This document shows positions 7,218 to 24,236 of a stretch of 64,000 nucleotides of DNA, in pieces; positions within the stretch are counted from its first letter, which is position 1; every line of letters starts with the position of its first letter. The DNA lies in contig NC_014012.1 in NCBI RefSeq assembly GCF_000091325.1, positions 3,061,313 through 3,125,312 of the forward strand, read 5' to 3'. The position numbers were made by a program, and so were the translations under genes. This DNA comes from Shewanella violacea DSS12. Its GTDB lineage: Bacteria; Pseudomonadota; Gammaproteobacteria; Enterobacterales; Shewanellaceae. The notes beneath the pieces are model-generated. The model was given only the letters and a program-made list of their open reading frames with translations. It searched no databases and was not told the DNA's origin.

Positions 7218-7233
7218 TGCAGTGATTATGCCA
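7218..7233 (-). promoter_or_regulatory. Sigma-54 promoter of nirB
   Basis: Read on the minus strand the site is TGGCATAATCACTGCA: GG and GC separated by exactly 10 bases, matching TGGCAC-N5-TTGCA at all but two of the conserved positions. A start near 7207 gives a ~130-nt leader containing the terminator at 7153-7117. Confidence 0.72.
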
Positions 7234-7325
7234 ACAAACTATCAGCGCCAAAGTGTTGATAATTAAAGAATTAAATAACTGGCTAGTAAAAGGGGAAATG
7301 AGTGAGCGCACAACCAAGGCGCTTC

Positions 7326-7342
7326 TGCACCATTTTGGGCGG
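7326..7342 (-). promoter_or_regulatory. NtrC-like enhancer site upstream of nirB
   Basis: The minus-strand sequence CCGCCCAAAATGGTGCA matches the classical NtrC site TGCACTAAAATGGTGCA at 12 of 17 positions, with the right half perfect. It lies 93-109 bp upstream of the -24 element, the usual enhancer distance. Confidence 0.55.
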
Positions 7343-7398
7343 AATTGAAATGATGAGAGTTGAAAGGTAACTGTAGATAAATGAAAGCTTAGCTTAAT

Positions 7399-8040
7399 TT
7401 AGTTTAGGGGTAATTGTTGAACCAGCTGCTCAACAGAGATCCCGCTGTCCATCGCCTGTTTTTGCAAGAGTTTATGGGCTTGAGATTCACTCAATCCGTT
7501 TTGTTGAAGTCTTGCCTTCACCTTGGCCAGTAATTTTTGTGCCTCCAATGATGATTCTAATTGGAGGATCTTCTCTTGCTGCTCATTGGCCAGGCTGAAC
7601 CTTAGTTTTGCCAGTTCTATGACCTGCTCTAGTCTAGCGGGATCAAACTCACCGGGTACGAATGTCACCCTGCCACATTCTAGTAATCTGGTCAGATCCT
7701 CAGCCTGCCAACACTTGGCATTCACCACCAGCGGAATGGGAGAGAATTGCATCAGGCGTAACAAGACGCCTAGATCCACATTGGATAATTCTGAGCAAAA
7801 ATACAGCAGCAGATCACCATCAAGCCTAAGATGTATTCGTTCAATATCTCGTAAAAGACTCAATGAGATCACTTGCCCAGAAATAGCCGCTAAGGTTTTT
7901 TCAATGCTTTCTGCTGGTCCACTCGAGGGAGTCGAGGATAACGAACCCGTATTTGATGATGAGATAAGCTCTTTATTGGAAGCCCTAGTGTCCTTGAACT
8001 CCATGGCAGAAAATGAATTAAAACAGGTATAAATAGTCAT
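7399..8040 (-). CDS. nasT: ANTAR-domain transcription antiterminator, NasT-like
   Basis: 213 residues from the ATG at 8040. That start overlaps the upstream stop as ATGA and has GGAGG five bases before it; a longer frame to 8094 is less likely. The last ~55 residues are an ANTAR domain (LEAQKLLAKVKARLQ, then LSESQAHKLLQKQAMDSGIS), an RNA-binding antiterminator fold, preceded by a coiled-coil linker. The N-terminal ~130 residues look like a degenerate receiver: I cannot find a convincing phospho-acceptor aspartate in a beta-3 context. ANTAR proteins of this kind antiterminate nitrate-assimilation leaders, and a terminator stands in front of nirB next door. The usual nitrate-sensing partner NasS is not in the window. 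Confidence 0.85.
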   Translation of the reverse strand: MTIYTCFNSFSAMEFKDTRASNKELISSSNTGSLSSTPSSGPAESIEKTLAAISGQVISLSLLRDIERIHLRLDGDLLLYFCSELSNVDLGVLLRLMQFSPIPLVVNAKCWQAEDLTRLLECGRVTFVPGEFDPARLEQVIELAKLRFSLANEQQEKILQLESSLEAQKLLAKVKARLQQNGLSESQAHKLLQKQAMDSGISVEQLVQQLPLN

Positions 8041-9230
8041 CTCATCCTCCATGCCTGAATGGCTAACGATTGAGCTTGTGAAACGGATTGACACTTACCT
8101 TGCAGTAGGTAAATTGCCGACAATGTACTGATAACGCTCGCCTCGGCAATTTGTCCTAGCTTAGATGATGCTGATGACGAAAATGCTGAATGACTCTCAT
8201 GGCGAGTGTCACTGGCCTCACCATGGTGCCAAATCTGACTCAATACCAAGCAAGCTTGCTGGGGTGAAAGTGCAAGCTCTGATGACAAGGTATTCATGCC
8301 AACAAAACCTTCGAGCCGAGTAGGAAGATAGATAACTTGGCTGGTATCCCCTGTTGCTATGGTCAACTCGGTGGATATCCTAGGATTAATTTCAGTTTCT
8401 CCCTGAACCCCTTTAAAAATACCGACTCGCCCTTTGAGTGCAAACGCTTGCTCGGCAGGATTTACAGCCGTGCTATCCATACTGTGATCCAACTTATTAT
8501 CGAAATGATTATCAAAATTACGATGCAAGTTGTCATTATAAGGATCATCCGGCAGGCGAGCATCTAAACACGCACAGGCCATTAGCTTAGCGACCTTGCC
8601 ATGCATCTTATCCAAACCTGGGTGAAAATAACTGCGCAGGCTAATAGGGGCATTGGCAGGATTTGTGCAGCGAATGGCAATCTGGAACAGACTTCTTAAA
8701 CCTAGCTCTTGATGTAACTCGCGAAATTGCGCAACCAAGGGCGAGAAACTATCGGCATCGACATAACAAATCCCCACTGCATCTAATGCAGCTTTAGCCT
8801 CGTCAGGATTGCTCGCCTTAGGAATATTAAGTCCCTCAACATGAGCCGCTATATGATTTCTATGACTGAGTGATTTAGGATCTCCATGGAGTAACACCCG
8901 CTCACCTTGACTGGCTAACACTTTTGCAGCGAGTAATAGCCAGGGCAATAATTCACGTTTTCCGGCATAACAGGGCCAGTCGATGCTCACATCGAGATTA
9001 GACCACTGGGCACTCATGGTTGATTTAATTCCTAAAGCTGCTCCGGCAACTTCCTCACAGGTTTCTCCCCTCACCCGCATCAACATTAACGCCGCAGCGA
9101 GCTGCACCTTAGTGCCAATGCCGTCAGAGAATCCTCTAATAAGAAAATGCGCCTCACTGAGCGTCAATGAACGGGAACCTTTTGCACCTCGCCCTAATGT
9201 TTTTATTAACCCCTGATAGGCTTTCTTCAT
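8037..9230 (-). CDS. Anthranilate phosphoribosyltransferase-like protein of the TrpD2/YbiB type
   Basis: 397 residues, longer than the usual ~320-340. The N-terminal helical domain (LTLSEAHFLIRGFSDG, LAAALMLMRVRGET) and the core (LLPWLLLAAKVLASQGERVL, RSYFHPGLDKMHGKVAKLM) match the glycosyltransferase family 3 fold shared with TrpD. Members called TrpD2/YbiB bind nucleic acid and are not tryptophan enzymes. Around residues 228-255 there is an extra Asn/Asp/His-rich segment (YNDNLHRNFDNHFDNKLDH). It is translationally coupled to the ANTAR gene. No tryptophan genes are nearby, so a regulatory role in nitrate assimilation is the more likely reading, but it is an inference. Its own 5' end is repeated upstream (see repeat). 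Confidence 0.75.
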   Translation of the reverse strand: MKKAYQGLIKTLGRGAKGSRSLTLSEAHFLIRGFSDGIGTKVQLAAALMLMRVRGETCEEVAGAALGIKSTMSAQWSNLDVSIDWPCYAGKRELLPWLLLAAKVLASQGERVLLHGDPKSLSHRNHIAAHVEGLNIPKASNPDEAKAALDAVGICYVDADSFSPLVAQFRELHQELGLRSLFQIAIRCTNPANAPISLRSYFHPGLDKMHGKVAKLMACACLDARLPDDPYNDNLHRNFDNHFDNKLDHSMDSTAVNPAEQAFALKGRVGIFKGVQGETEINPRISTELTIATGDTSQVIYLPTRLEGFVGMNTLSSELALSPQQACLVLSQIWHHGEASDTRHESHSAFSSSASSKLGQIAEASVISTLSAIYLLQGKCQSVSQAQSLAIQAWRMR

Positions 9231-9490
9231 TGAGTCTACAGCCTCTTATTATTTCAATTTAAAACAAAGACATAAATGAATGACAACCTTTATCACCACA
9301 ATCAAACTAATGTTTTTATTAACCCCTGATAGGCTTTCTTCATTGAGTCTACAGCCTCTTATTATTTCAACTTAAAACAAAGACATAAATGAATGATAAC
9401 CTTTATCACCACAATCAAACTAATGTTTTTATTAACCCCTGATAGGCTTTCTTCATTGAGTCTACAGCCTCTTATTATTTTAAGTTAAAA
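9195..9490. repeat. 113-bp tandem repeat made of the start of the TrpD2-like gene plus its upstream region, ~2.6 copies
   Basis: Units begin at 9195, 9308 and 9421. Each holds the first 12 codons of the TrpD2-like gene, its ATG and ~75 bp upstream. Copies one and two are nearly identical; the third diverges after about 9490. In copies two and three the ATG (9343 and 9456) is followed by 12 authentic codons and then GTT TGA, giving two 13-residue mini-ORFs (9302-9343 and 9415-9456, minus strand) in front of the real gene. The repeat fills most of the gap between cobA and this gene. Confidence 0.92.
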
Positions 9491-9566
9491 CAAACATATA
9501 GATAAAGAGATTAATGAACATATCCTCTTTAACCACAATAAAACGAGTGGTTTCATTGCTGAGAAC

Positions 9567-10478
9567 CTAAGCTGATTCACTCATCTCTTTATCTCTGGAA
9601 ATCACACCATGATTACTGTACTCGACTTGATTGATTAGCTCCCCAAGCTCTTGTCCCACAGAAACCACTTCACCCACTATCATCAGAGTAGGACCCGACA
9701 CTTGAAGCTGACTGGCCACTTCGGCCATGGTGCCTAAGGTCGCAAAACTTAATTTCTGCTCGACTCTGGCCCCACTACTGATAAACACCATAGGCAGTTT
9801 GATGCTTGCCCCAGCGGTTAACAAACCATGTGCGATATGCGCCGCCTGCTCTTTTCCCATATAAAATACTAGGGTCGACTGGGCCGTTAGCAGAGCCTGC
9901 CAGCCTACACCTGTGCGGGATGAATCATCGATAACGGTTCCTGTCACTAAGGTCACAGACCTTGCGACTCCTCTGTGAGTCAGAGGGATCCCAGCACTGG
10001 CGGCGCAGCCTAATGCCGCAGTGACACCAGGGACAAATTGACTGGCAATACCATGCTTAGCCAGATAGATGGCCTCTTCACATCCACGGCCAAATACATT
10101 GGGATCGCCGCCTTTTAATCGCACCACCTTGAGGCCGCGCTTCGCACACGCCACCAGCAAGTGGTTGATATCATCTTGCTTGGCACTAGGCATACCACAC
10201 CTCTTACCGGCAAAGTGCATCTCACACTCGTTCGATGCAAGCTCAAGAATATCTGCACTGACCAAACTGTCATAGATCAAAGCATCCGCAGAGGAGATAA
10301 GCCGGGCGGCTTTAAGCGTCAGTAGCTCAACATCACCGCAACCCGCACCAACGATAGCCACCCTAACTGAGCCAGTATTCCCCTTTAGATCTGGCATTGA
10401 GCTCGACCTAGAGTCAGAGTTAGCGTTAATACTTGAGTGTATGACGTCTTTCAATTCAACAATATCGGCACTCTTCAT
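9567..10478 (-). CDS. cobA: Uroporphyrinogen-III C-methyltransferase (SUMT)
   Basis: 303 residues of the class III methyltransferase fold. Motifs: the N-terminal loop VGAGCGDVELLTLKA, the phosphate/SAM motif RLKGGDPNVFGRG, PGVTAALGCAASAG and PLTHRGVARSVTLVTG. It makes precorrin-2 from uroporphyrinogen III, the first step to siroheme, the cofactor of NirB. It lacks the CysG dehydrogenase/chelatase half, so those steps must be encoded elsewhere. GGAGCG precedes the ATG. A ~50-residue N-terminal stretch before the domain is poorly conserved-looking. It has its own sigma-54 promoter and may be cotranscribed with the trpD2-like and ANTAR genes. Confidence 0.93.
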   Translation of the reverse strand: MKSADIVELKDVIHSSINANSDSRSSSMPDLKGNTGSVRVAIVGAGCGDVELLTLKAARLISSADALIYDSLVSADILELASNECEMHFAGKRCGMPSAKQDDINHLLVACAKRGLKVVRLKGGDPNVFGRGCEEAIYLAKHGIASQFVPGVTAALGCAASAGIPLTHRGVARSVTLVTGTVIDDSSRTGVGWQALLTAQSTLVFYMGKEQAAHIAHGLLTAGASIKLPMVFISSGARVEQKLSFATLGTMAEVASQLQVSGPTLMIVGEVVSVGQELGELINQVEYSNHGVISRDKEMSESA

Positions 10479-10529
10479 CTCTTCGCTCCCACTTTTTTAT
10501 TAGCTTTCCTTATCGATAGTTAAATTGAT

Positions 10530-10545
10530 TGCAACCCACACGCCA
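10530..10545 (-). promoter_or_regulatory. Sigma-54 promoter of cobA
   Basis: The minus-strand site TGGCGTGTGGGTTGCA has GG-N10-GC spacing and a perfect TTGCA -12 block. It lies about 50-65 bp before the cobA ATG. Confidence 0.7.
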
Positions 10546-10628
10546 AGAATTAACATACTGATATTTAACAACTATTAAACCAACCTCACTTAAACCCAGT
10601 GGATATGAACTGCGAACGTGCAAACATT

Positions 10629-10645
10629 TGCACCAAAATAGGACA
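10629..10645. promoter_or_regulatory. NtrC-like enhancer site upstream of cobA
   Basis: TGCACCAAAATAGGACA matches TGCACTAAAATGGTGCA at 13 of 17 positions and lies 84-100 bp upstream of the -24 element. It overlaps a second inverted repeat, GTGCAAA-CA-TTTGCAC (10618-10633), with 7-bp perfect arms. Confidence 0.55.
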
Positions 10646-10818
10646 ATTGAGACAGGAGGGAAATTCTAGAGAGATATCAGAAGTATCAGAGCACATTTAG
10701 CTGATAACATTTAGCTCAGGAGCGGGGAATGTGCAATTGATGCATGGAACATCAAGGACCCATGGATTTCTTTATACGTGAGTGCATAACTCTTTATTAT
10801 AAGAAGTCCAGACATAGA

Positions 10819-10916
10819 GCAGGCTTTAATCCATCCATGGAAGCCTGCATAAGTGTTCCCGACACAACGAAAACTTTTAACCATCCCTGGAAAATTTTCA
10901 TAAGTGTTCCCGACAC
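10819..10916. repeat. Two copies of a 47-48 bp structured repeat with covarying stems
   Basis: Copy A (10819-10865) and copy B (10869-10916) share the loop core CCATCC(A/C)TGG and the tail CATAAGTGTTCCCGACAC. The flanking stems differ in sequence but both pair: GCAGGCTT with AAGCCTGC in A, and GAAAAcTTTT with AAAATTTTC (one bulge) in B. The tail itself can form GTGT-TCCCG-ACAC. The rest of the 10479-10968 gap holds the cobA promoter and the htpX terminator; no gene is convincing there. Confidence 0.8.
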
Positions 10917-10943
10917 AAAAACGGGAGCCTAGGCTCCCGTTTG
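10917..10943 (-). terminator. Terminator of htpX
   Basis: A palindromic stem, ACGGGAGCCT/AGGCTCCCGT (10921-10940), is followed on the minus strand by TTTT (10920-10917). It sits 26 nt after the htpX stop codon. T-rich flanks on both sides could let it act in both directions. Confidence 0.85.
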
Positions 10944-10968
10944 GTTCGTAATGATTACTAACTAGTGA

Positions 10969-11829
10969 CTAGCTAGCACGTAGAGCCGCGATACGCTTCT
11001 CTAATGGAGGATGACTCATCATCAGCTCAGACATAGACTTCTTGCCATTGATACCCAGTGCTGACATCTGTGCCGGCATGGCGCCAGTTGCTGGGCCATT
11101 ACGTAAACGCTCCAGTGCAGCAATCATCTTATCTTTGCCTGCCAGCTTAGCGGCGCCTTCATCGGCCTTAAATTCACGGATACGTGAGAAGTAGGCGACT
11201 ATCATAGAGGCAAGAATACCAAACAGCATATCCAGGACAAAAACCACGCCCATATAGGCGAACATGCCCAGACCTTCACCCTCTTCATCATTACTGGAAA
11301 TGAAGTTATTGATGATGCCAGCCACCACACGTGCAGCGAAGATAACGAAGGTATTCACCACACCTTGAATCAAGGTCAGAGTCACCATGTCGCCGTTTGC
11401 CACATGGCTTACTTCATGGGCCAGTACACCCTCTATCTCATCCTTGTTCATGCCATAGAGGAGGCCACTACTGACGGCAACAAGCGCATTGTCTTTGCTT
11501 GGGCCGGTAGCGAAAGCATTGAATTCTGGTGATTGATAGATAGCGACTTCGGGCATCTTAATACCCGCTTTATCCGCCTGACGAGCGACAGTCTCGACTA
11601 ACCACCTCTCAGTGTCGTCTCTTGGGGTCGTGATAACTTCACAACCCATAGTCTTTTTAGCCATCCATTTAGAGATAGCCAAACTGATGAAGGCGCCGCC
11701 GAAGCCGAAGATCGCGGCAAACACCAGTAAGCCCCCCATGGTCGAAGTGTTAACACCCAATAGTGACATCACTATTGAGGCCACCAGTAAAATTGCCATA
11801 TTAGTCGCAATCAATAAAAAAATACGCAT
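10969..11829 (-). CDS. htpX: Membrane zinc metalloprotease HtpX
   Basis: 286 residues from the ATG at 11829 ([10 protein letters not shown]), preceded by CAGGAG; the frame stays open to 11883 but HtpX family length and the RBS support the later start. Two N-terminal membrane segments are followed by the zinc-protease motif HEVSH with the downstream glutamate ligand in [10 protein letters not shown], then two further membrane segments and a C-terminal [13 protein letters not shown] typical of the family. It degrades misfolded inner-membrane proteins together with FtsH and is usually envelope-stress inducible. It is a single gene with its own terminator. Confidence 0.96.
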
Positions 11830-12194
11830 TGAATAATCTCCTGTAGGGTACCCGAGTACCTGATTTTGCGTTCCTAAAGACATAATATGTCCAAATGAAT
11901 AGAATTCAAGGGGACAAAAGTAATAAAATGTATGACTGAGTGAATAAAAAACAATTCTGGCTCAAAAATACTCCGCAAAAATTAAGCAATGCAGTCTAGA
12001 AGCCTTACATTAAGCCAATATTAAAATCTGAGTCTTAGTCCCAGTAGCAGTGCTGCAACCCCATTAATATTTATTAACATAGTTTATAAGTTCGACAAAA
12101 GAGAAGATAACAACATCATCTCCTATACTAAACGGAACCCCTCGAGTTAATATTCGTTTCAAGTTTCGGATTTGTTGGTAAGGAGTTGTCATCA
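11830..12194. other. Divergent intergenic region, no gene seen
   Basis: 365 AT-rich bases between htpX and the divergent binding-protein gene. It must contain both promoters. I see no clear operator, hairpin or small ORF apart from the AAGGAG at 12180-12185 that serves the next gene. Confidence 0.4.
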
Positions 12195-13235
12195 ATGGTC
12201 ATATGTTTCAGCCAAGTTTCATTTTCCAACCCTAGATGGAATGCCTCAATAATCTCCCGACTCCTGTCACTGTGTATCCTAATTTTATCACTGCTTTCTC
12301 TGTTGCAATCGAATATCGTCCTAGCTGAAACTCAGGCCCAACCAGTCGAATTTATTCATTTTCTTATTCCAGGCGGTGAAGGCGGAGGCTGGGATACAAC
12401 AGCAAGAGAAGCTGGCAAGGCTCTGCTAGCCTCCAGACTGGTACATAGAGTCTATTTCGACAATTTCATCGGTGCCGGTGGCGGCCGAGCTCTGATGGCC
12501 TTGGTCAATCATCCTGAGAAGCATCTAAATACCTGGATGATCCAATCCACTCCCCTGATATTGCGCCACCTGACCGGCACGATTCCATATAGCTTTCGGG
12601 ATATCATTCCTATCGGTACCTTGATAGCCGAATATCAGGCAATCGTGGTGCCAATGAACTCCAGATTTCACACCATACATGACCTCATCAGTGCCATAGC
12701 CGACTCCCCGGTGCGCAATCCAATTTTAGGTGGTTCATCACTTGGTAGCCTAGATCACATCACCTTAGCGTTAATTGCTCAGGCAGGTGATTTACCTATC
12801 AGCAAGCTACGTTATGTGCCAACGGATGGTGGTGGTGATGCTATAAAAAAATTGAATCAGGGACTCGGTGTAGCTTTGGTGAGTGGCATAGGTGAAGTCA
12901 CTCAAGCCTACCGCAACCAAGAGATCCGCATATTGGGGGTCACCAGCAAGAAGAGGCTAGTGACTCTGCCAAAGGTGAAAACCTTGTCAGAGCAAGGACT
13001 GAATGTGCAATTTGCTAACTGGAGAGGCTTCTTTGTCTCCTCTCAACTGTCAGCTGAAAAAGTTCAAAGCTACAAACAGCTATTATCAGAACTCAATCTC
13101 AGCCAGGAGTGGGCCACAGCTAGAAAGACCCATCAATGGCAACAGCTTTTTCTACAGGATGACGACCTCATCGATTTCCTCAACCAGCAAGAACTTATGA
13201 TGAAGAAGGCACTTTCAGACTTAGAGATAGAATAA
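12195..13235 (+). CDS. TctC-family periplasmic binding protein, orphan
   Basis: 346 residues from the ATG at 12195, which has AAGGAG 9 bases upstream; a TTG at 12186 is too close to that RBS. A Sec signal peptide with a long hydrophobic core ends near VLAETQA. The mature start has the Bug/TctC ligand-loop signature (LIPGGEGGGWDTTAREAG) and later GGSSLGSLDHI and YVPTDGGGDA. Such proteins bind tricarboxylates or other carboxylates for tripartite TctABC transporters. No tctA or tctB is adjacent, so the partner must lie elsewhere, or it serves as a sensor component. The ligand cannot be read from the sequence. Confidence 0.85.
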   Translation: MVICFSQVSFSNPRWNASIISRLLSLCILILSLLSLLQSNIVLAETQAQPVEFIHFLIPGGEGGGWDTTAREAGKALLASRLVHRVYFDNFIGAGGGRALMALVNHPEKHLNTWMIQSTPLILRHLTGTIPYSFRDIIPIGTLIAEYQAIVVPMNSRFHTIHDLISAIADSPVRNPILGGSSLGSLDHITLALIAQAGDLPISKLRYVPTDGGGDAIKKLNQGLGVALVSGIGEVTQAYRNQEIRILGVTSKKRLVTLPKVKTLSEQGLNVQFANWRGFFVSSQLSAEKVQSYKQLLSELNLSQEWATARKTHQWQQLFLQDDDLIDFLNQQELMMKKALSDLEIE

Positions 13236-13313
13236 CTAAGAGCAACTAAGAGCAACTAAGAGCAACTAAGAGCAACTAAGAGCAACTAAGAGAAACTAAG
13301 AGAAACTAAGAGT
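13234..13313. repeat. 10-bp tandem repeat, 8 copies
   Basis: The unit AACTAAGAGC is repeated without gaps, starting at the stop codon of the tctC-like gene; the last three copies vary at one position (AACTAAGAGA/T). It is a minisatellite in a convergent intergenic gap. Confidence 0.95.
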
Positions 13314-13319
13314 ATTCAC

Positions 13320-13352
13320 AATAACCCTATCATCGCCGTAAGATGGGTTATT
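13320..13352. terminator. Hairpin between the convergent tctC-like gene and bioD
   Basis: AATAACCC pairs with GGGTTATT, extended by ATC/GAT past one bulged T, around a ~10-nt loop. No strong T-run follows on either strand, so it is a weak or factor-assisted terminator candidate. Confidence 0.5.
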
Positions 13353-13391
13353 CAAAAGCAAAAATAGCTTAGATTAAGCAGTCCAAGAAAC

Positions 13392-14096
13392 TTAAATAGT
13401 CGATGGAACCAAAGTCGCCAGACTAAGATGCTCAGCAGCAGCTTTAGCAGTAACCTCACTGAGATAAGGCACCACGCCTAAACAAGGGGATGGCATGAGT
13501 TGAAACAGGCTAGCTAGGTTCTCATCCAGGCAGCTGGTCTGTGGCTCCACAATATTTGCGACCCAACCTGCAACGGTTAAGCCATCGGCTATGATAGCTT
13601 CATGTGTGAGCACTGCATGATTTAAGCAGCCTAGTTTCACCCCCACGACTAAAATCACTGGCATATCTAAGGCTTGAACAAGCTCAGAGAGAAAGTGGCC
13701 TCCCCCTAAAGGCAGACGCCAGCCCCCCGCCCCTTCGATAAGACAGACATCATTATGATTCAGCTCAGCTGCCGCTAGACTTAGTTGTATTTTGGCCAGT
13801 AATGCCCCTGGACTGATGTCCACTCCAACCTGTGACGCTGCAATATGCGGCGCAATGCCAGGCAAGAAAGAGATAGGATTAACCAGATCATAATCCAACT
13901 TAATGCTGGACTCTTCTATGAGTGCTAAGGCATCACTGTTTCTCAAGCCTATTTCTGTCTGCTCACAACCTGAGGCGACAGGTTTAAGCCCTAAGGTACG
14001 CTCATAAGCTTGGTTTTGGCTCATTTTATACAAGAGCGCCGAAGTGACTAAGGTCTTACCACTATCTGTGTCTGTTCCTGTGACGAAGTACTTCAT
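13392..14096 (-). CDS. bioD: Dethiobiotin synthetase
   Basis: 234 residues. The N-terminus carries the P-loop FVTGTDTDSGKT, and VEGAGGWRLPL gives the second conserved block of BioD. It carboxylates 7,8-diaminopelargonate to dethiobiotin with ATP. The start overlaps the bioC stop as ATGA, so the pair is translationally coupled, and it is the last gene of bioBFCD. Confidence 0.96.
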   Translation of the reverse strand: MKYFVTGTDTDSGKTLVTSALLYKMSQNQAYERTLGLKPVASGCEQTEIGLRNSDALALIEESSIKLDYDLVNPISFLPGIAPHIAASQVGVDISPGALLAKIQLSLAAAELNHNDVCLIEGAGGWRLPLGGGHFLSELVQALDMPVILVVGVKLGCLNHAVLTHEAIIADGLTVAGWVANIVEPQTSCLDENLASLFQLMPSPCLGVVPYLSEVTAKAAAEHLSLATLVPSTI

Positions 14097-14887: not shown

Positions 14888-14963
14888 TACTTCGGGCTCC
14901 TTCGTTTTACTTTTTACAGGCTATCGGCACCATATTTAATACCGACTGTTCTCACTTTTGAAA

Positions 14964-16253
14964 TTAGGCTAAGCTATTGGTTAATCCAACCACTAATCTA
15001 TTTATGTCATCACGAGTATGCATAGCTGTGATAGTCATTCGCAGTCGCGCAGAGCCTTTAGGCACTGTTGGAGGACGAATAGCCCCGACCCAGAGTCCTA
15101 ACTGCTTAAGTTTGTCGGCAACGAGTAAGGTGGTATCAACATCACCCAGCAACAAGGGCTGAATTGCAGTGTATGAATCGGCCAACTTGATATCTGCCAG
15201 CTCACATTGCTGCCTAAAATAGCCTATATTATCGGCCAATGTTTGAGCCAGAGACTTGTCTGTATCAATGAGATCCACTGCGGCTAAAGCAACACAGGCA
15301 TTCACCGGCGAAATAGCGGTGGAATAGATATATTCTCTGGCATTGGAGACCAGAAAATCGATCACCTGCTGACTGGCTAAGATGGCAGCGCCTTGACAGC
15401 CTAAAGCCTTACCAAAGGTGACCACCTGTATATCGGCAATCTTGGCATCGACTAATGGCGGCGTCTGCACCCCAAAACCGTGAGCATCATCGACAATGAG
15501 GCAGACATTATTCTGCTTACAAAGGGCAGACAATGATGAGAGCGGTGCGATATCACCGTCCATGCTAAAAATACTTTCGGTGACCAAGGCGCTGGGCACT
15601 TGCTGGTTCATAATGCGCTCGGCGCTGGTAATATCATTATGTAGGAAACGCTTTAACTGAGTCTGACTGTCTCTTAGCCCATCGATAACAGAGGCGTGCA
15701 TCAGCTTATCAGCCATCACCATATCCCTTGAATCGAACAGGGTCTTCATCAATGCCGTATTCGCACTGAAACCCGAGCAAAATAATAAAGCCGCCTCGTG
15801 GCCAGTGATCTGGCAGAGTCTCTGCTCCAATGCCAGATGCGCCTCACTATAACCTGTGACCAAAGGTGAGGAACCACTGCCTACACCGTAACGTTTAGCC
15901 CCAAGGCACATGGCATCAATTAGCTTAGGTGAACGAGATAAGCCAAGATAGTCGTTGCTGCTAAAATTGAGGTAATGCTTACCCTCTAAGGTGAAGGATA
16001 ATGCCCCAGGCGCTTCAATATTAGTTGCCTCAATATTAGTTACTTCAATATTAGTTGCTTCAATATTAGTTGCTTCAATATTAGTTGCTTCAATATTAGC
16101 TGCTTCAATATTAGTTGCTTCGATATTAGTTGCTTCAATATTAGGCGCCTGAGATAAGCGTGCAGATATAGCATGCCTGCGACGCAGCAAGCCTTGGCTA
16201 GCTAGCTGAGCCTGAGTCTTATCTATCTTATCCAGCAAAGAGGAAGTACTCAT
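14964..16253 (-). CDS. bioF: 8-amino-7-oxononanoate synthase with a nine-unit NIEAT repeat insertion
   Basis: 429 residues, about 45 more than usual. The PLP lysine lies in TFGKALG, and DDAHGFGV and the glycine-rich SSNDYLGLSRS block are typical of BioF. It condenses pimeloyl-ACP and alanine to KAPA. Between the N-terminal helix and the conserved FTLEGKHYLNFSSNDY, residues ~36-80 are nine imperfect NIEAT pentapeptides encoded by a 15-bp minisatellite. The reading frame is intact, and the insertion is at a surface-exposed N-terminal junction, so the enzyme is probably still active. It lies 43 nt after bioB. Confidence 0.95.
   Translation of the reverse strand: MSTSSLLDKIDKTQAQLASQGLLRRRHAISARLSQAPNIEATNIEATNIEAANIEATNIEATNIEATNIEVTNIEATNIEAPGALSFTLEGKHYLNFSSNDYLGLSRSPKLIDAMCLGAKRYGVGSGSSPLVTGYSEAHLALEQRLCQITGHEAALLFCSGFSANTALMKTLFDSRDMVMADKLMHASVIDGLRDSQTQLKRFLHNDITSAERIMNQQVPSALVTESIFSMDGDIAPLSSLSALCKQNNVCLIVDDAHGFGVQTPPLVDAKIADIQVVTFGKALGCQGAAILASQQVIDFLVSNAREYIYSTAISPVNACVALAAVDLIDTDKSLAQTLADNIGYFRQQCELADIKLADSYTAIQPLLLGDVDTTLLVADKLKQLGLWVGAIRPPTVPKGSARLRMTITAMHTRDDINRLVVGLTNSLA
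16012..16149. repeat. 15-bp in-frame minisatellite inside bioF, 9 units
   Basis: Units read TTAGTTGCTTCAATA on the plus strand (NIEAT repeated on the coding strand), with single changes giving A or V or P in place of T or A. A 15-bp unit keeps the frame, so unit number can vary without breaking bioF. Confidence 0.95.
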
Positions 16254-17361: not shown

Positions 17362-17406
17362 TTAACTTACCCTTTTTGCTCAATATAATTTGTTTTTATC
17401 TTGCCT

Positions 17407-17434
17407 AGGATACCTGCAGGTCTTAATCTGTCAA
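17407..17434 (-). promoter_or_regulatory. Sigma-70-type promoter of bioB
   Basis: On the minus strand TTGACA (17434-17429) is a perfect -35, followed after 16 bases by TATCCT (17412-17407, 4 of 6). The -35 lies inside the left half of the BirA operator. Confidence 0.6.
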
Positions 17435-17460
17435 CGCCAACCAGTCAAATAGGTTTACTA
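17428..17460. promoter_or_regulatory. BirA-type biotin operator between bioB and bioA
   Basis: CTGTCAACG - 15 bases - GGTTTACTA matches the BirA consensus TTGTAAACC-N15/16-GGTTTACAA (left arm 6/9, right arm 8/9). It overlaps the bioB -35 and ends 11 bp before the bioA ATG, so biotinyl-AMP-bound BirA could block both directions. Confidence 0.7.
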
Positions 17461-17471
17461 ACGGTTAATAT

Positions 17472-18872
17472 ATGAACAAAAACAATTCCAATATCAGTCC
17501 TAGTATCTCAACAGCGACTCTTTCAACAGCAGAGCCTTCAAGCTCCAGCATAGATTTTGAATTTGATAAACAGCATATCTGGCATCCCTATACCTCAATG
17601 AACAATGCCCTGCCTGCATTCGGTGTGGTATCGGCAAAAGAGTGCCTACTCACCTTAGATGATGGTCGCCAGCTTATCGATGGCACCAGCTCCTGGTGGG
17701 CCTGTGTTCATGGGTACAGCCATCCGGCAATCGTCGATGCTATGCAGAGTCAACTTGGAAAACTCAGCCATGTGATGTTTGGCGGTATCACTCATCAACC
17801 TGCCATCGAACTCTCGAAAAAATTGGTCGCCATGACCAGTGATAACCTGACTAAGGTGTTTCTGGCAGACTCAGGCTCTATTGCCGTCGAAGTGGCGCTT
17901 AAGATGGCACTGCAATATTGGCAAGGCAGAAATCAGCCTAACAAACAGCGCATCCTCACGGTAAAATGCGGCTATCACGGCGATACCTTCGCCGCCATGA
18001 GCATATGTGATCCCGAAGGCGGCATGCACACCATGTTCGGTGACTCAGTCACCCAACACGAATTTGTCAGCGCACCACAGGCATGTTTTGGTGCCTGTTT
18101 TAATCCCAGCGAACTGGGCGAGATGCGAGCCAAACTTGAGGCCATGCAAGGTGAAATTGCCGCCGTGATCATAGAGCCTATACTGCAAGGCGCTGGCGGT
18201 ATGCGCTTCTACCACCCGGATTATCTACTCGGCCTGCGTCAACTTTGTGATGAATTTAAGGTGCTACTGATACTCGATGAGATAGCCACGGGCTTTGGCC
18301 GCACCGGCAAGATGTTCGCCTATGAGCATGCCGCATCTAATGGACAAACCGTTGAGGCCGATATCTTATGTTTAGGCAAGGCGCTCACCGGCGGCTATAT
18401 ATCACTGGCTGTTACTATGTGCAGTGATGAAGTCGCACAAGGGATCAGCGACTCCCCTGCCGGCGTCTTTATGCATGGTCCTACCTTTATGGGTAACCCA
18501 TTAGCTTGCTCGGCCGCCTGTGCCAGCTTAGATCTGCTTGCAAATGGTGAATGGCAAGGACAAATCGCCAGTATAGAAGCTCAATTAAGTACTGAACTGG
18601 CAGAAGCTATCGATTATCCCCAGGTAAAAGATGTGCGAGTACTGGGCGCCATCGGGGTGATTGAGATGAAATCGACTGTCAATACAGCTCAGCTACAGCA
18701 AGAGTTTGTCGACCTTGGCGTGTGGATCCGCCCCTTCTCCAACCTTATCTACATCATGCCCCCCTACGTGATCACACCCGAGCAGCTGACTAAACTGACC
18801 TCGGCAATGAAAATCGTCGCCAGCAAGCTGGTGGAAAGCGTTGAAGTGAGCGGTTTTATCAGCCATGGCTAA
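17472..18872 (+). CDS. bioA: Adenosylmethionine-8-amino-7-oxononanoate aminotransferase
   Basis: 466 residues, class III PLP aminotransferase. HIWHPYTSM near residue 36 and DGTSSWWACVHGYSHP are BioA-specific; the PLP lysine lies in CLGKALTGGY. It converts KAPA to DAPA using SAM as amino donor. The first ~28 residues are Ser/Thr/Asn-rich and not part of the fold. It is transcribed divergently from bioB. Confidence 0.97.
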   Translation: MNKNNSNISPSISTATLSTAEPSSSSIDFEFDKQHIWHPYTSMNNALPAFGVVSAKECLLTLDDGRQLIDGTSSWWACVHGYSHPAIVDAMQSQLGKLSHVMFGGITHQPAIELSKKLVAMTSDNLTKVFLADSGSIAVEVALKMALQYWQGRNQPNKQRILTVKCGYHGDTFAAMSICDPEGGMHTMFGDSVTQHEFVSAPQACFGACFNPSELGEMRAKLEAMQGEIAAVIIEPILQGAGGMRFYHPDYLLGLRQLCDEFKVLLILDEIATGFGRTGKMFAYEHAASNGQTVEADILCLGKALTGGYISLAVTMCSDEVAQGISDSPAGVFMHGPTFMGNPLACSAACASLDLLANGEWQGQIASIEAQLSTELAEAIDYPQVKDVRVLGAIGVIEMKSTVNTAQLQQEFVDLGVWIRPFSNLIYIMPPYVITPEQLTKLTSAMKIVASKLVESVEVSGFISHG

Positions 18873-18893
18873 AGATTCATCTTAGACACCAAT

Positions 18894-18983
18894 ATGTTTT
18901 TTGTGGCCTGTAATAGCACCACTGTGGATACCTTAGATGATATAGGGCCATCTAATATTAGTGGTGATTGGTTTGATGATTAA
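18894..18983 (+). other. Possible 29-codon micro-ORF in frame after bioA
   Basis: An ATG at 18894 opens a frame ending TAA at 18983 with an acidic tail (NISGDWFDD). The frame is continuous with bioA's, separated only by the bioA stop and seven sense codons. No RBS is evident and I recognise no family. It may be chance or a relic of a longer C-terminus. The rest of the 18873-19187 gap holds the hairpin listed next. Confidence 0.2.
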
Positions 18984-19028
18984 ATCCGTAGGTCTAAAAA
19001 ATTCAACAGAGATAAAAATATAAATACT

Positions 19029-19080
19029 CAATTAAGCACTTAGGTGCAGGCTTTATTGCCTGCACCTAAGTGCTTAATTG
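19029..19080. terminator. Perfect 23-bp hairpin between convergent bioA and the nitrate reductase cluster
   Basis: Positions 19029-19051 and 19058-19080 are exact reverse complements (core GCACTTAGGTGCAGGC) around a 6-nt TTTATT loop. There is no T-run after it, but it lies in a convergent gap, 157 bp after bioA and ~110 bp after the gene on the other strand. A bidirectional transcription barrier is the simplest reading. Confidence 0.6.
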
Positions 19081-19187
19081 TGCTTCTGTATCTGCTCTAA
19101 CATTAGACTTAAACTTAGAAAACAAGATAACACTAGACCTAAGCTCACCTATATAAGTTTGCTAGCTAGGTACAGGCTAGCCTGCCG

Positions 19188-19625
19188 TTAGCCTACCTTA
19201 GGTTGCTCCGTTCTGGGTTTCCATTCCCACCACTGCATCTGCTCGTCACCTTGTTGGTCTGACTGCTTGTCCGATACAGGCTTATAAGCCTCTCCCTCTG
19301 CAGGTTCTTGCTTATAAGATCGGGTCTGATAAATATCCCAGGTGATCAGGTAGTTTGGGTCGGTCACAGTGACTCCATCAACACTGGTGTGAAACTTTCC
19401 CTTGGGAGCAGTAAACCAACATGACAAATCTGTGGGGATGAGGAACTGCTTACTTCCTTGACTCGAACTCTCCTTTTCGAACAGGGCTATGCCTATGCCT
19501 TTTTCTGCATCGCAGGAGCTTACCTTTCCCGCTAATAGAGACTGCTTGAGCATCTCCCCTTCGGCGGAAAAGTAAGTCAGTCCAATCAAGCAGGTCTTCT
19601 CTATGGTCGTTTCCAATGTCAGCAT
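19188..19625 (-). CDS. Unknown protein downstream of the nitrate reductase subunits
   Basis: 145 residues from the ATG at 19625, which has GAGGTG four bases upstream. A longer frame from a TTG at 19700 only adds a low-complexity Lys/Asn/Asp stretch and has a badly spaced RBS. I recognise no domain. It has two cysteines near the start (KTCLIG, SSCDAEKG), a predicted beta-rich middle (FLIPTDLSCWFTAPKGKFH) and a polar, Gln/Glu-rich C-terminus ending in WWEWKPRTEQ; no signal peptide or membrane segment. It follows the membrane subunit by 97 nt on the same strand, so an accessory role for the reductase is possible but unproven. Confidence 0.65.
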   Translation of the reverse strand: MLTLETTIEKTCLIGLTYFSAEGEMLKQSLLAGKVSSCDAEKGIGIALFEKESSSQGSKQFLIPTDLSCWFTAPKGKFHTSVDGVTVTDPNYLITWDIYQTRSYKQEPAEGEAYKPVSDKQSDQQGDEQMQWWEWKPRTEQPKVG

Positions 19626-19722
19626 ACTCACCTCATCTCGTTTGTGCTTATTATTCTTATCATGCTTGTCTTTATTGTTCTGGCTCTTGTTACTGCGCAA
19701 CTCCCAACACTTGTTATCTAGC

Positions 19723-21804
19723 TTAATGGGCTAGCGGCGCCACACCACAGGCCGGATTATCCGCCAAACCTATGTCTCTGGCATGTTGCTCGAATCCCTT
19801 GTTCTTCCAGAAGAAGGCGCCGGGCATAGTAGTGGGGATCACCAGATTATAAAACAGAGCCCGACCTATGACGGCACTGATACAATTAATCAGGGCGATA
19901 ACTGACCAGGCAACAAATGCCCACAGGTTAACGCCTACTGACTCTGAGGCTAGCCCTTGGGTGTTGAACAAGCCAAGTTCTCCCAGGGCCAGTAATGTCA
20001 GGCTGGCAAAGATATTCAAGGTTAACATCAGGTTACGTAGCTTGTAAGTCTTGCCAAAGGTAGTGCACTGAATATAGTGCGCCGCGCCGCCCTCATTCTC
20101 ACTGGCATTGAGATCCCGGTTGTGACCTATCAAACCTATGGCTTCGAGCACCACACCGAATAGCCACACACCTCCCAGTAGCTGTAAGGCGGGTAAGAGT
20201 GGTAGTGACAACACGGCGAGTGTGCTCAATACCATCACGCCGCTCACCATGGCTCCCAAGGACACGCTGTTACCCACAAAGCTGGTCAGTGTCTGCCAAT
20301 GATTCCAGAACGGACGCGCCTTGATCTGATAACACTGGTTCATGTAATACAGACCCGCGGCGCCAGCGATAGCGGCAAAAACGCCCGCCCCCAGCGTTAG
20401 GTTAACCAAGGGCAAGGCATTAGTAAGCACTGATAGTTCGATGTCAAAACCAGATACCAAGAGTTCATTAATCCAGGTATTCGTGGCTAGCAGACTCACA
20501 GCCATCAGACCGAGTCCGGCGCTGAACAAGGCCAGGCCTAATCCTTCACGGCTCATGGGTGAATAACGCAAGTTGTTAAACCCACGATAGAAACGAAAAG
20601 GTTTACCCAGATGAGTAACACTCATAAACAGGCCAAAAGAGGTCATCGATAGCGATGTGACCACCAGCACTAACATCATGTCTGAGGCCATAAATAGCTC
20701 AAACAGTTCGACCCCAGCCAAGGCCGCAAAGAAGGGGACCATAAAGGTACCCAAGGCAGCCTGAGCAAACAGGGTGAACAGCACCAAGGGATTCTCCCGA
20801 CTGTTGAGTTTGGCCAGGTTCCAGTGTTGCTTCTTGCCCACTTTTTGATCTATCACAGGCTTATATTGGCCATCTTCACCCTTGTGGTATTTAACCGGCA
20901 TGGAGTCGGTTCGCGTCATCTCCTCCGGCATAGACTTGGTCTGCTGGAAACGTATGTTGGGCCGGGTGATTTCCGGTGATGGGAAGCCAGGAATGCTGGT
21001 CTTACATTGCTCACGGCTCTCCGGCGTATTCTCGATCACACCAAAATCCAGTGCATTACCCACACAGGCTGAGACGCACGCAGGCTTGAGGCCCACTTCT
21101 AACCTATCGACACACATGTTGCACTTAGACACTCTTCCCTTAACTGGATCCAACTGAGGCGCATTGTAGGGACAAACCCAGGTGCAGTAGCCACAGCCGA
21201 AACAGGTTTCAGGGTCCTGCAACACGGCGCCATATTCAGCATGTTTAGTATAAGCTCGGGTCGGACAGCCCTTGAGACAGACGGGATCGTCACAGTGGTT
21301 ACAGGCCATGGAGATGTTCATCCGCTTATAATCCGGATATGAGCCCCCCTCCACATAGCCAACCGAGCGAAATGCCAGATGAGCCGGGGTGTCGTTCTTC
21401 TCGGCGCAGGCCGACTCGCAGGCATGACAACCGATACAGTTATCTGCGGTAAAGAAGAAACCATGCTGCTTGTTACGATCTGGATTCGTGCCCACTGCCG
21501 GATTGTCGTTGATAAACATGGAGCGGCCCACAGGATTATCGGTCAACTCCACCAAGTCGATACGCTTGCCGTAGCGGTTCTCTATCTCGCTATCTGTCTT
21601 AGGCAGATAGGCGTAGGCCTGTTCCTCGGTGCGTACTTCCCAATGATCCGAGCGCCCCAGCTGCTCTTCGCCTCTCTTAGGTAAAACGTTCGCTTTGGTC
21701 ACCTTTATGCTTGAGCCGGTCTCTGGGGTAAATAGCCCTACCCCAGCCTTGTCACTGTCACTGCCACTGTGCAATCTGCTACCTTGAGTTATCTGTGATG
21801 TCAT
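19723..21804 (-). CDS. Fused DmsB-like four-cluster ferredoxin and DmsC-like membrane anchor
   Basis: 693 residues that look like two usual subunits joined. Residues ~110-290 hold sixteen cysteines in four groups (CIGCHACESAC; CNHCDDPVCLKGC; CFGCGYCTWVC; CNMC...CVSAC), typical of DmsB/NrfC four [4Fe-4S] proteins. Residues ~345-680 have about eight membrane segments with the DmsC feature THLGKPFRFYRGF. About 110 residues precede the first cluster. There is no Tat or Sec signal, so the iron-sulfur part should face the cytoplasm. It probably carries electrons from the quinol pool to the molybdoenzyme encoded 57 nt upstream on the same strand. Whether it serves assimilation or respiration cannot be read directly. 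Confidence 0.88.
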   Translation of the reverse strand: MTSQITQGSRLHSGSDSDKAGVGLFTPETGSSIKVTKANVLPKRGEEQLGRSDHWEVRTEEQAYAYLPKTDSEIENRYGKRIDLVELTDNPVGRSMFINDNPAVGTNPDRNKQHGFFFTADNCIGCHACESACAEKNDTPAHLAFRSVGYVEGGSYPDYKRMNISMACNHCDDPVCLKGCPTRAYTKHAEYGAVLQDPETCFGCGYCTWVCPYNAPQLDPVKGRVSKCNMCVDRLEVGLKPACVSACVGNALDFGVIENTPESREQCKTSIPGFPSPEITRPNIRFQQTKSMPEEMTRTDSMPVKYHKGEDGQYKPVIDQKVGKKQHWNLAKLNSRENPLVLFTLFAQAALGTFMVPFFAALAGVELFELFMASDMMLVLVVTSLSMTSFGLFMSVTHLGKPFRFYRGFNNLRYSPMSREGLGLALFSAGLGLMAVSLLATNTWINELLVSGFDIELSVLTNALPLVNLTLGAGVFAAIAGAAGLYYMNQCYQIKARPFWNHWQTLTSFVGNSVSLGAMVSGVMVLSTLAVLSLPLLPALQLLGGVWLFGVVLEAIGLIGHNRDLNASENEGGAAHYIQCTTFGKTYKLRNLMLTLNIFASLTLLALGELGLFNTQGLASESVGVNLWAFVAWSVIALINCISAVIGRALFYNLVIPTTMPGAFFWKNKGFEQHARDIGLADNPACGVAPLAH

Positions 21805-21861
21805 TATCTCGTCCCCAGCCTTGAACCTCAGGCTTCAAATTCGCAAAATTATTCCCTAACC

Positions 21862-24066
21862 CTAAAACGCACGACGCTTGACATTGATCCGCGCCGCTTC
21901 ATCTTGATCGATCGGCTCTATTCGCGTGCTGCACTGCTTAAATGCTGGCTGACGTGAATAGGGATCGAGTAAGCCTAAGGTGAGACGGTTGACACAATCG
22001 TGGTAATGAAACGGGATAAACACCATGTTACGGGGCACCCTATGGGTTAACTGCACCATCACCACGGCATCGCCGCGACGACTCGTGAGGCGAACATAGC
22101 TCTGGTGTTCGACCCCAAGCTCTTTAGCCGCATCTGGGTTCATCTCCATGTACGCCGTTGGGCTGAACTTGTTGCAGTTACCTATCTTGCCCGTACGGGT
22201 ACGGGTATGAAAATGCTCCACCACCCTGCCGCTATTAAGCCAGAAGGGATACTCGTCACAGGGCTGCTCGTTGTTGTTATAAAAATTAATGGGCAGCAGA
22301 TTTGCCTTACCTGACTGAGTCGGAAACAGGCCATCGCTGTAGAGTCTGGCTGTGCCTTTGAGACCTTCATCTTGTTCTCTAAATGGCCACTGAATGCCTC
22401 GGGCTGCCTCGATTTTCTCATAGGTCATACCCGAAATATCTAAGTGACGCGGCCCCCCATGGGACAACTTGCCCTTAGACAGGTATTTCATCTCTTCGAA
22501 CGCCCCTTCCGGTGTCTCGGGAAAATGGATCATCTGGCCGTTATCGAAACGCTTGGCCAGCTGATTAAAGATCCAAAAATCTGGCTTAGAATTCTTAAAG
22601 GGAGGCAAGACATTACAGATCAGGTTGACCCTGCGCTCAGTGTTAGTGTGGGTACCCTCTTTTTCGGCCCAGACCGATGCCGGCAGATACACATGAGAAT
22701 ACTGGTTAGTCTCGACGTCACTATAGACGTCTTGGATAACCAGAAAGTCCAGCTTCTCCAGCGCCTTACGGATACGCGCCGTGTTGGGCATTGAGGTCAT
22801 GGGATTAGTGGCCACGATCCACAGGCCTTTTATCTCTCCAGTCTCGATGGCTGGAAAAATATCGGTCTCGGCCAGACCGCGTTTCTTGGGAAAGAACTCA
22901 GGATCTATGCCCCAAAAATCGGCTATCTCGTTTCTGTCGGCTTCATTTTCCAGATAACGATATCCGGGTAAGCCCGAGCAAGATGACCACTCTCGGGTGC
23001 CCATGGCATTACACTGACCGGTTATCGATAAGCTGGTGCCACCAGGCTTACCTATATTGCCGGTTATCATATTCAGGTTATTGATGTTGGCGACACCATC
23101 TGAGCCGTGGGTAGATTGGTTTATCCCCATGGTCCAGATGCTCATGGCCGTCGGTGCCTTAGCATAAATTCTCGCCACATTACGTATGGTATCTTCGTCT
23201 ATGCCGCAAATGTGTTGGGCTTGCTTAGGATCATAGTCCTGCACCAGTGCTTTAACCGCCTCGAAGCCTTGGGTATGGGCGTCGATATAGGCCTGATCTT
23301 GCAGCCCTTCATTGATGATCACATGCAGCATGGCGTTGATCAGTACACAATCTGTGCCTGGGGTGATAGGTAGATGGATATCGGCAAATTGCGCCAACAT
23401 GGTCACTCGAGGATCCACCACAATCAAAGGAAAATGACGCTTCTCCAGCGCCTCTTTCAGACGCCAATAGATGATTGGATGCTGCTCGGGAAGGTTGGAG
23501 CCAAAAGCCATCAGACAGTGGGTATGCTCGAAGTCATCGTAACAGCCCGGCGGACCATCGGCGCCGAAGGAGCGCTTATAGCCGCTGACCGCGGATGCCA
23601 TGCACAAGGTGGTGTTACCATCATAGTTATTAGTGCCTATCACGCCCCGGGCAAGTTTGCCTAAGGTGTAGAACTCTTCGGTTAACAGCTGGCCCGAAGA
23701 GACGATGGCAAAAGAATCACGGCCATACTTGGCTTGAATTTCTTTGATTTTATCGGCCGTGGTATCCAGGGCATGATCCCAGGAGGTAGGCTTAAAGTCT
23801 TCGAAATGCTTGTCTCTTATAAGAGGCTCGGTTCCCCTGCCCGGACTCTCGAACAACTCGTGCTCTAAGATCCCCTTGATGCAGAGTTTTCCCCGATTCA
23901 CATCGGCGCCAGCATGGCCACGGGTGGTAACAATCTTGTTCTGCTCGTTTAAGCCTATTTCGATGGAGCAACCCGTAGAGCAGTAGTTACAGGTGGTGTA
24001 CTTCCACTGTGCAACTTTCTTGCTGGGTATCACGATAGGCTTTCTTTTTTTACGACCAAACAGCAT
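21862..24066 (-). CDS. Molybdopterin nitrate reductase, assimilatory (NasC/NarB-like) catalytic subunit
   Basis: 734 residues. An N-terminal [4Fe-4S] motif C26-X2-C29-X3-C33-X28-C62 and the NapA/NasA-type motif TTLCMASAVSGYKR, whose C155 is the likely molybdenum ligand, place it in the Nap/Nas group of bis-MGD enzymes. Later blocks (MGINQSTHG, GNIGKPGGTSLSITGQCNAMG, NSGRVVEHFHTRTRTG) agree. There is no Tat twin-arginine signal, so it should be cytoplasmic, as assimilatory reductases are. It lacks the C-terminal BFD [2Fe-2S] domain of enteric NasA. The partner is a DmsBC-like fusion rather than a flavoprotein. Formate dehydrogenase is the main alternative but would usually have Sec/Cys-H context. 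It has its own sigma-54 promoter. Confidence 0.85.
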   Translation of the reverse strand: MLFGRKKRKPIVIPSKKVAQWKYTTCNYCSTGCSIEIGLNEQNKIVTTRGHAGADVNRGKLCIKGILEHELFESPGRGTEPLIRDKHFEDFKPTSWDHALDTTADKIKEIQAKYGRDSFAIVSSGQLLTEEFYTLGKLARGVIGTNNYDGNTTLCMASAVSGYKRSFGADGPPGCYDDFEHTHCLMAFGSNLPEQHPIIYWRLKEALEKRHFPLIVVDPRVTMLAQFADIHLPITPGTDCVLINAMLHVIINEGLQDQAYIDAHTQGFEAVKALVQDYDPKQAQHICGIDEDTIRNVARIYAKAPTAMSIWTMGINQSTHGSDGVANINNLNMITGNIGKPGGTSLSITGQCNAMGTREWSSCSGLPGYRYLENEADRNEIADFWGIDPEFFPKKRGLAETDIFPAIETGEIKGLWIVATNPMTSMPNTARIRKALEKLDFLVIQDVYSDVETNQYSHVYLPASVWAEKEGTHTNTERRVNLICNVLPPFKNSKPDFWIFNQLAKRFDNGQMIHFPETPEGAFEEMKYLSKGKLSHGGPRHLDISGMTYEKIEAARGIQWPFREQDEGLKGTARLYSDGLFPTQSGKANLLPINFYNNNEQPCDEYPFWLNSGRVVEHFHTRTRTGKIGNCNKFSPTAYMEMNPDAAKELGVEHQSYVRLTSRRGDAVVMVQLTHRVPRNMVFIPFHYHDCVNRLTLGLLDPYSRQPAFKQCSTRIEPIDQDEAARINVKRRAF

Positions 24067-24132
24067 AAAATTCGCCCCACATTCAATAGATTCTATTTTT
24101 AGTTAAGCTTTATCTAAGCTTTACTAGAGTAA

Positions 24133-24148
24133 TGCACTAGCCGTGCCA
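24133..24148 (-). promoter_or_regulatory. Sigma-54 promoter of the nitrate reductase operon
   Basis: The minus-strand site TGGCACGGCTAGTGCA differs from TGGCACG-N4-TTGCA at one conserved position and has exact GG-N10-GC spacing. It lies ~67-82 bp before the reductase ATG. Confidence 0.8.
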
Positions 24149-24219
24149 TAGATTTTAATCATATTAAACAGTAGGTTATTAACACCCTCGATTTGTGACA
24201 TGCTCAAGATCAGTGCTTT

Positions 24220-24236
24220 CGCTTTAAAGTGGTGCA
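24220..24236. promoter_or_regulatory. NtrC-like enhancer site upstream of the nitrate reductase operon
   Basis: CGCTTTAAAGTGGTGCA matches TGCACTAAAATGGTGCA at 13 of 17 positions with a perfect right half, 72-88 bp upstream of the -24 element. Confidence 0.55.

Follow-up and report, generated by a model that had tools for sequence, protein, structure and literature searches.

In a stretch of 64,000 nucleotides of the Shewanella violacea DSS12 genome (hereafter the window; positions 3061313–3125312 of the single contig NC_014012.1, 4,962,103 bp), three putative operons, nirBD–transporter–kinase, cobA–ybiB–nasT and a nitrate reductase operon, very probably constitute one nitrogen-limitation regulon under control of NtrC, sigma54 and IHF, with an apparently inherited promoter at cobA and an additional layer of control in the nirB leader. 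The sites, their conservation, the promoter spacing, the leader terminator and the gene content were computed and are given below. A motif claim made by eye is thereby extended to a nitrogen regulon predicted across the genus.

Sigma54 boxes and NtrC-like sites: All boxes are on the minus strand, were read directly as GG-N10-GC and stand in TGGCA/TGC-like context: nirB, TGGCATAATCACTGCA (7218..7233); cobA, TGGCGTGTGGGTTGCA (10530..10545); reductase operon, TGGCACGGCTAGTGCA (24133..24148). NtrC-like sites, also on the minus strand, were located upstream of the boxes: nirB, CCGCCCAAAATGGTGCA at 109 bp (7326..7342; one perfect half-site) and AGCGCCTTGGTTGTGCG at 90 bp (7307..7323; weak in loci L017–L019 and L021–L024); cobA, TGTCCTATTTTGGTGCA at 100 bp (10629..10645) and the weaker TGCACGTTCGCAGTTCA at 77 bp (10606..10622); reductase operon, TGCACCACTTTAAAGCG at 88 bp (24220..24236; one perfect half-site) and the weaker AGCACTGATCTTGAGCA at 69 bp (24201..24217). 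The three boxes and their upstream sites were found where the first-pass annotation had placed them. Its wording of near-consensus NtrC sites overstates the case of nirB and is half right in the reductase operon, in which one half-site is perfect; of the same architecture seen three times, a box with an upstream site is present in each case, but the spacings are three different ones (cobA 100/77, nirB 109/90, reductase 88/69 bp). A crude scan of the minus strand of the three upstream regions gave no match to a sigma70-like consensus, and a scan of the window with Rfam gave nothing above the gathering threshold.

Scoring against chance: The NtrC matrix was trained on glnA promoters alone (60 distinct sites from the 29 of 30 glnA loci with a usable box; NtrC-type sites mostly ~80, 102 and 119 bp upstream of the sigma54 box). 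Two sigma54 matrices were used, the first from assumed base frequencies, the second from glnA boxes alone; the joint score combines a sigma54 box with an NtrC-type site 60–130 bp upstream. For the first background, 60 stretches of 20 kb (24% of the S. violacea genome) supplied 563 upstream regions with no less than 100 bp of free DNA; the second was a 900-bp upstream scan of 547 regions, 16 near stretch ends being excluded. Joint scores were 22.7 (nirB), 27.5 (cobA) and 31.1 (reductase), the best background score was 19.6, and with the first sigma54 matrix none of the 563 regions reached any of the three promoters; this comparison with unrelated upstream regions is of the kind that the first-pass annotation had proposed, and its statement that the arrangement is hard to get by chance was borne out. 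Elsewhere on either strand of the window, no combination with a sigma part of at least 10 scored above 18. Dinucleotide shuffles reached none of them (0/2000 for each; shuffle maximum 21.1, so that the margin for nirB is small), and column-permuted NtrC matrices reached the observed site score in 1/300 (nirB), 0/300 (cobA) and 0/300 (reductase) cases. The S. violacea glnA promoter scored 41.4, which is not an independent control because its sites belong to the training set. Two glnK/glnB loci served as further controls; L091 combines an NtrC-like site (15.6) with a poor box (7.0), and neither element was seen at the second.

Conservation: NasT relatives were found in 49 of 117 genomes of the genus and the reductase of the window in 15. 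The close-relative set comprised the S. violacea genome and all 14 other genomes with the window-type reductase (named ones include S. benthica), the second set the nas regions of 20 of the 34 remaining NasT-bearing genomes. A database search with NasT returned 14 proteins, the named ones all from Shewanella, and a contig scan with NasT three loci (L008–L010); L009 and L010 were taken as the G058 and G074 loci and not counted a second time, save in the 37-locus leader count given below, and L008 was taken as the G027 locus (L013) and omitted from the scans. Excluded were L013 for cobA (its contig breaks off within ybiB), L038 (contig end close to the start of the reductase gene) and L039 (second reductase copy). 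With 450 bp upstream, the scan took boxes inside the nirB terminators of L046 and L051 that proved spurious, and it overlooked that of nasA in L054; 900 bp upstream and 60 bp inside the gene resolved these cases.

The nirB −24 TGGCA and −12 GC are kept in 15/15 close-relative loci, that of S. violacea included. Joint scores above 18.9, the maximum of the matched background (547 regions), were obtained for nirB 15/15, cobA 14/14 and reductase 14/14 in close relatives and for nirB 20/20 and nasA 20/20 in the other Shewanella; against the first-background maximum of 19.6 the close-relative counts were 15/15, 13/14 and 14/14 (900-bp scan), and both counts of 20/20 for the other Shewanella were unchanged. 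All 14 cobA promoters are regarded as above background because the background of the same width peaks at 18.9. The positions of the sites are nearly fixed: 90/109 or 91/110 for the best-scoring nirB sites in 15/15; 69/88 for the reductase in 12/14, the remaining two being 1–2 bp longer; 77/100 or 78/101 for cobA in 9/14, with 76–77/119–120 in the other five, a displacement by roughly two turns of the helix. The nirB position at 90/91 scores only −0.2 to 3.4 in 7/15 close-relative loci. In L017–L019 the nirB site at 109 forms an almost perfect palindrome, and the weak site of the window was taken as real for this reason.

IHF-like sites: The IHF consensus was taken to be WATCARNNNNTTR. Perfect matches were found on the minus strand 28 bp upstream of the nirB box (TATCAACACTTTG, 7249..7261) and 18 bp upstream of the cobA box (TATCAGTATGTTA, 10551..10563); the reductase operon has AAACAGTAGGTTA (24166..24178) on the plus strand, in inverted orientation and with 1 mismatch. 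With at most one mismatch allowed (chance per position 0.0019), the site stands at exactly 18 bp in 14/14 cobA and at 28 bp in 15/15 nirB promoters of the close relatives, at 18–19 bp in 14/20 nasA promoters, and at 28–29 or 39–40 bp in 12/20 of the other nirB promoters; 25/30 glnA promoters have it at 19 bp. The match is perfect in 10/14 cobA and 10/15 nirB promoters vs 10/1008 background windows of 62 bp. The reductase site, inverted and with one mismatch, stands at 30–31 bp in 13/14; here the fixed position alone counts, because a one-mismatch site occurs somewhere in the 62 bp of 167/1008 background windows. Column conservation (14/15 nirB, 12/14 cobA and 13/14 reductase promoters used) was 0.75–0.81 in the IHF core and 0.35–0.37 in its N4 part, like the spacer, and none of 94 slid positions in each promoter matched this pattern. 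A gene of ihfA type is present in the genome above its cut-off.

Start distances between NtrC and IHF sites of ~59–62 and 81–84 bp recur in cobA, nirB, nasA and glnA promoters (every pairing was tallied, and other distances occur too, in glnA also 100–101), and the IHF site lies near 18, 28 or 39 bp from the box. Distances of ~60 and ~82 bp common to several promoters, with an IHF-to-box distance that varies by about one helical turn, suggest a rigid enhancer–IHF unit that would be set one turn nearer to or farther from the box; the reductase promoter (88 minus 30) and those five cobA promoters that carry the two-turn insertion depart from this.

Origin of the cobA promoter: In the other 20 clusters the gene order is nasA-type reductase, cobA, ybiB, nasT, nirB, with htpX upstream of the reductase gene in 9/20, where the stretch reaches far enough. 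In these clusters a sigma54/NtrC promoter was found before nasA in 20/20 and before cobA in 0/20. The two best positions of the nasA promoters are 77–79 and 100–102 bp in 14/20, L054 being a 15th once its box was found; L047 and L053 have sites at 89–90/112–113. The cobA promoter of the window (77, 100) has the nasA layout of other Shewanella and for this reason looks inherited. No nasA relative was found in the window's group at the place upstream of cobA, to which the search was limited, and the reductase of the window is only 30–34% identical to the nasA type. On the simplest reading the cobA promoter appears to be the former promoter of the nasA operon, kept by cobA after deletion of nasA, with the loss assigned by us to the window's group; it is a probable example of a promoter that outlived its own gene and was retained by the next gene of the operon. 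Named homologues of the window reductase (85–88%, among the best 120 candidates) are from Thalassotalea, Thalassomonas, Pseudoalteromonas and Colwellia, a spread that fits transfer.

Proposed mechanism and alternatives: On nitrogen limitation, phosphorylated NtrC would bind at the sites 69–109 bp upstream of each −24 box, IHF between site and box would bend the DNA, and NtrC would contact and open sigma54–RNA polymerase; the extents of the operons, their transcription starts and the occupancy of the NtrC and IHF sites are predicted, as are the response to nitrogen and the action of NasT. The ancestral nasA would have been lost with its promoter staying at cobA, and its role would have passed to the different reductase operon with a sigma54/NtrC promoter of its own ~13.6 kb away; at nirB only, a leader terminator would also have to be overridden, most likely by NasT. 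One NtrC/sigma54 regulon is favoured because of the joint scores, the conservation in the genus, the one RpoN match in the genome and the one NtrC above the family cut-off; ntrC itself follows glnA, from which it is separated by a histidine-kinase-like open reading frame and two others. The regulon proposed by the first-pass annotation is supported in this respect but not in its confinement to the window, since glnA has the same kind of architecture.

Several results weigh against this reading. With the glnA-only sigma54 matrix 7 (nirB), 3 (cobA) and 0 (reductase) of the 563 background regions score as high, so that the ranking of nirB and cobA varies with the choice of matrix; a site equal to the best one of nirB occurs in 147/16,860 windows of 71 bp; the cobA promoter of L017 scores 19.4, under the first-background maximum; in the seven closest loci the NtrC-like sites of nirB score poorly (8.0–10.0 at best); the second site of the pairs is often weak or absent; and the relatives in the conservation counts are non-independent samples. 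Nitrate is a predicted substrate of the reductase. Ungapped identity of the cobA promoters to the nasA promoters of other Shewanella is 0.358, vs 0.351 (close-relative nirB), 0.348 (reductase) and 0.327 among the other promoter sets; overall identity, only slightly above that of other pairs, was discarded as proof of homology, which, because this identity is low, rests on motif order, spacing and synteny.

That another enhancer-binding protein drives the sigma54 promoters in response to a signal other than nitrogen status is unlikely: the ntrC model gave 59 matches with one above cut-off (many cover the receiver domain only, and 11 others span the central AAA+ region), and in the closest relatives of the window the site of nirB departs widely from the NtrC consensus, but the sites score with a matrix made from glnA alone and are hardly ever equalled with permuted matrices, the layout recurs in glnA promoters, and the genes concerned are those of nitrate assimilation. 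Pressure, acting via NtrC, might be the main signal in place of nitrogen supply, the three operons being pressure-induced along with glnA, since S. violacea glnA is described in the introduction of PMC10662104 as pressure-induced through sigma54 and NtrBC, with NtrC raised. We regard this as quite improbable: promoters of this kind also occur in the genomes of 34 other Shewanella, nitrogen supply accords with the gene content, and a pressure signal would add to NtrC control without excluding it. Nitrate assimilation of S. violacea may on the same ground, that glnA is reported to respond through NtrC, be predicted to be a pressure-responsive pathway. Least credible by far is a picking of the best among chance matches, GG-N10-GC boxes and half-palindromes being common. 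In the genome TGGC-N8-TGCA is matched 181 times (35 times when read backwards); it was set aside as uninformative when taken alone, and the nirB site alone is not rare; the empty background and shuffle counts stand against chance, and conservation in the genus already contradicts it.

Relation to known systems: The promoters resemble glnA-type NtrC-activated sigma54 promoters in the −24/−12 box, sites ~70–120 bp upstream and an IHF-like site between, and differ from them in lower site scores, three spacings and the inverted IHF-like site of the reductase operon. According to the available portions of the sources, nas genes are under NtrC control in Pseudomonas stutzeri (PMC8443478) and such control is predicted in alpha- and betaproteobacteria, the passage on Shewanellaceae naming gltBD and no nas genes (PMC5343134), and NtrC is listed as a nitrogen-assimilation regulator in a paper on Shewanella regulons (PMC3223726). 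NtrC/sigma54 control of nas genes is already known, with NtrC dependence or predicted NtrC sites as here, and the promoters described are an additional case, in Shewanella. NasT without NasS, the apparent inheritance of the cobA promoter and the constant position of the IHF-like site go beyond the first-pass annotation. Among the open-access matches listed, titles and opening parts of abstracts contained no report of these Shewanella promoters or of NasT without NasS; supplementary tables may hold nas genes.

Leader of nirB: A strong intrinsic terminator (7122..7153, minus strand) precedes nirB, and its 5' base is overlapped by GGC-AATGGC-GCC (7148..7159, minus strand), a P2 hexaloop of ANTAR type with A1 and G4. 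The core GGCAA-N-GGCGC was found at the 5' base of the terminator in 37/37 nirB loci (35 genomes), with variable stem and loop; the hexaloop of GGC-AAWGGC-GCC, by its A1 and G4, agrees with the P2 part of the ANTAR rule, which, as stated in the accessible part of PMC3369931, also requires a second hairpin (P1). No strict P1 hairpin with an A1/G4 hexaloop was found; any candidate was seen in 4/37 loci, at differing positions, and none in the window. The leaders of cobA and of the reductase operon in the window showed no comparable terminator. The additional layer, a leader terminator most likely overridden by NasT, would accordingly be confined to nirB; it has no place in the first-pass annotation.

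NasT without NasS: The NasT-like ANTAR protein (7399..8094, minus strand; PF03861, E 9.7e-9) is the only PF03861 match in the genome. Its neighbours are nirB and a YbiB/TrpD2-like gene related to anthranilate phosphoribosyltransferase (8037..9230, minus strand; NCBIfam matches all below cut-off), which adjoins nasT in 35/35 NasT-bearing Shewanella genomes (in G027 its end only). A gene of PF13379, the family that includes NasS, was found beside nasT in 0/35 of these genomes (by coordinates; drafts have other contigs); PF13379 matches anywhere were present in 26/35 and absent in 9/35; a NasS too diverged would escape the model. The one PF13379 match of S. violacea, distant from nasT, was considered as a NasS locus and rejected: its N terminus is signal-like, its neighbour is a sensor kinase, and the sigma54 box nearby faces away from it and has no NtrC-like site. 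That box, TGGCACGGCTCATGCA (L006, 6097–6112; genome 1526096–1526111), is near-perfect and precedes the gene of a secreted-looking protein of 713 aa, divergent from the PF13379 protein/sensor-kinase locus.

Outside the genus, 64 further genomes among the 274 of the class that were searched contained NasT relatives (perhaps including AmiR-type proteins), and loci were returned for 29 of them. In 20 of these 29 a relative of a confirmed PF13379 protein stands beside the NasT relative (tblastn, query locus counted), and in none was a YbiB relative found at E 1e-5. Among flanking frames (75 found, 58 scanned) 16 match PF13379. The lack of NasS accordingly appears to be lineage-specific. Antitermination by NasS–NasT/NasR, so far as the accessible text of PMC3795266 and PMC3369931 describes it, has in common with the present system the ANTAR protein, the leader terminator and the A1/G4 hexaloop at its 5' base; it differs in that Shewanella has no NasS-family gene beside nasT and no strict P1, with a YbiB/TrpD2-like neighbour instead. 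NasT without NasS is the least ordinary part of the system and raises the question of the route of nitrate sensing. It is conceivable, though doubtful, that Shewanella NasT acts without NasS, that the YbiB/TrpD2-like protein, whose gene is directly upstream, has replaced NasS as the partner that holds or releases NasT, and that NtrC/sigma54/IHF sets when the circuit is on. Near the C-terminus of the ANTAR domain, NasT of the window's group has Val/Ile where other Shewanella mostly have Ala/Ser, and at an earlier position 14/17 rows of the group have Val instead of Ala; in our own reading the differing positions may be the conserved ANTAR alanines.

Genes of the operons (all on the minus strand): nirB (4453..7077) is followed by a nirD-like frame (4072–4425) and a transporter of the MFS family (2595–4064), whose respective roles, the latter in nitrate transport, are suggested by position and sequence, and then by a PP2C phosphatase–Ser/Thr kinase fusion (672–2570). 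A relative of the fusion was found in the stretches of 19/20 other nas clusters (partial in L049, none in the L050 stretch). The cobA gene (9567..10478) encodes uroporphyrinogen-III C-methyltransferase. The reductase operon comprises a nitrate-reductase-like molybdopterin enzyme (21862..24066), a fused DmsBC-like (DmsB–DmsC) electron-transfer/anchor subunit (19723–21804) and a protein of 170 aa without Pfam or NCBIfam match (19188–19700); the catalytic subunit resembles nitrate reductases of the assimilatory type and also formate dehydrogenase alpha, with every match under the model cut-off, and its homologues are named nitrate reductase. The second reductase copy in L039 (G090:C46) is 76% identical and had no box scoring at least 12 in 450 bp upstream. 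Elsewhere in the window, a strong sigma54-like box TGGCATGGCTTGTGCT was seen upstream of 48209, before an RND-efflux-like operon and without an NtrC-like site, and a BioF-like protein (14964–16253; named from sequence) contains tandem NIEAT-type pentapeptides near its N terminus.

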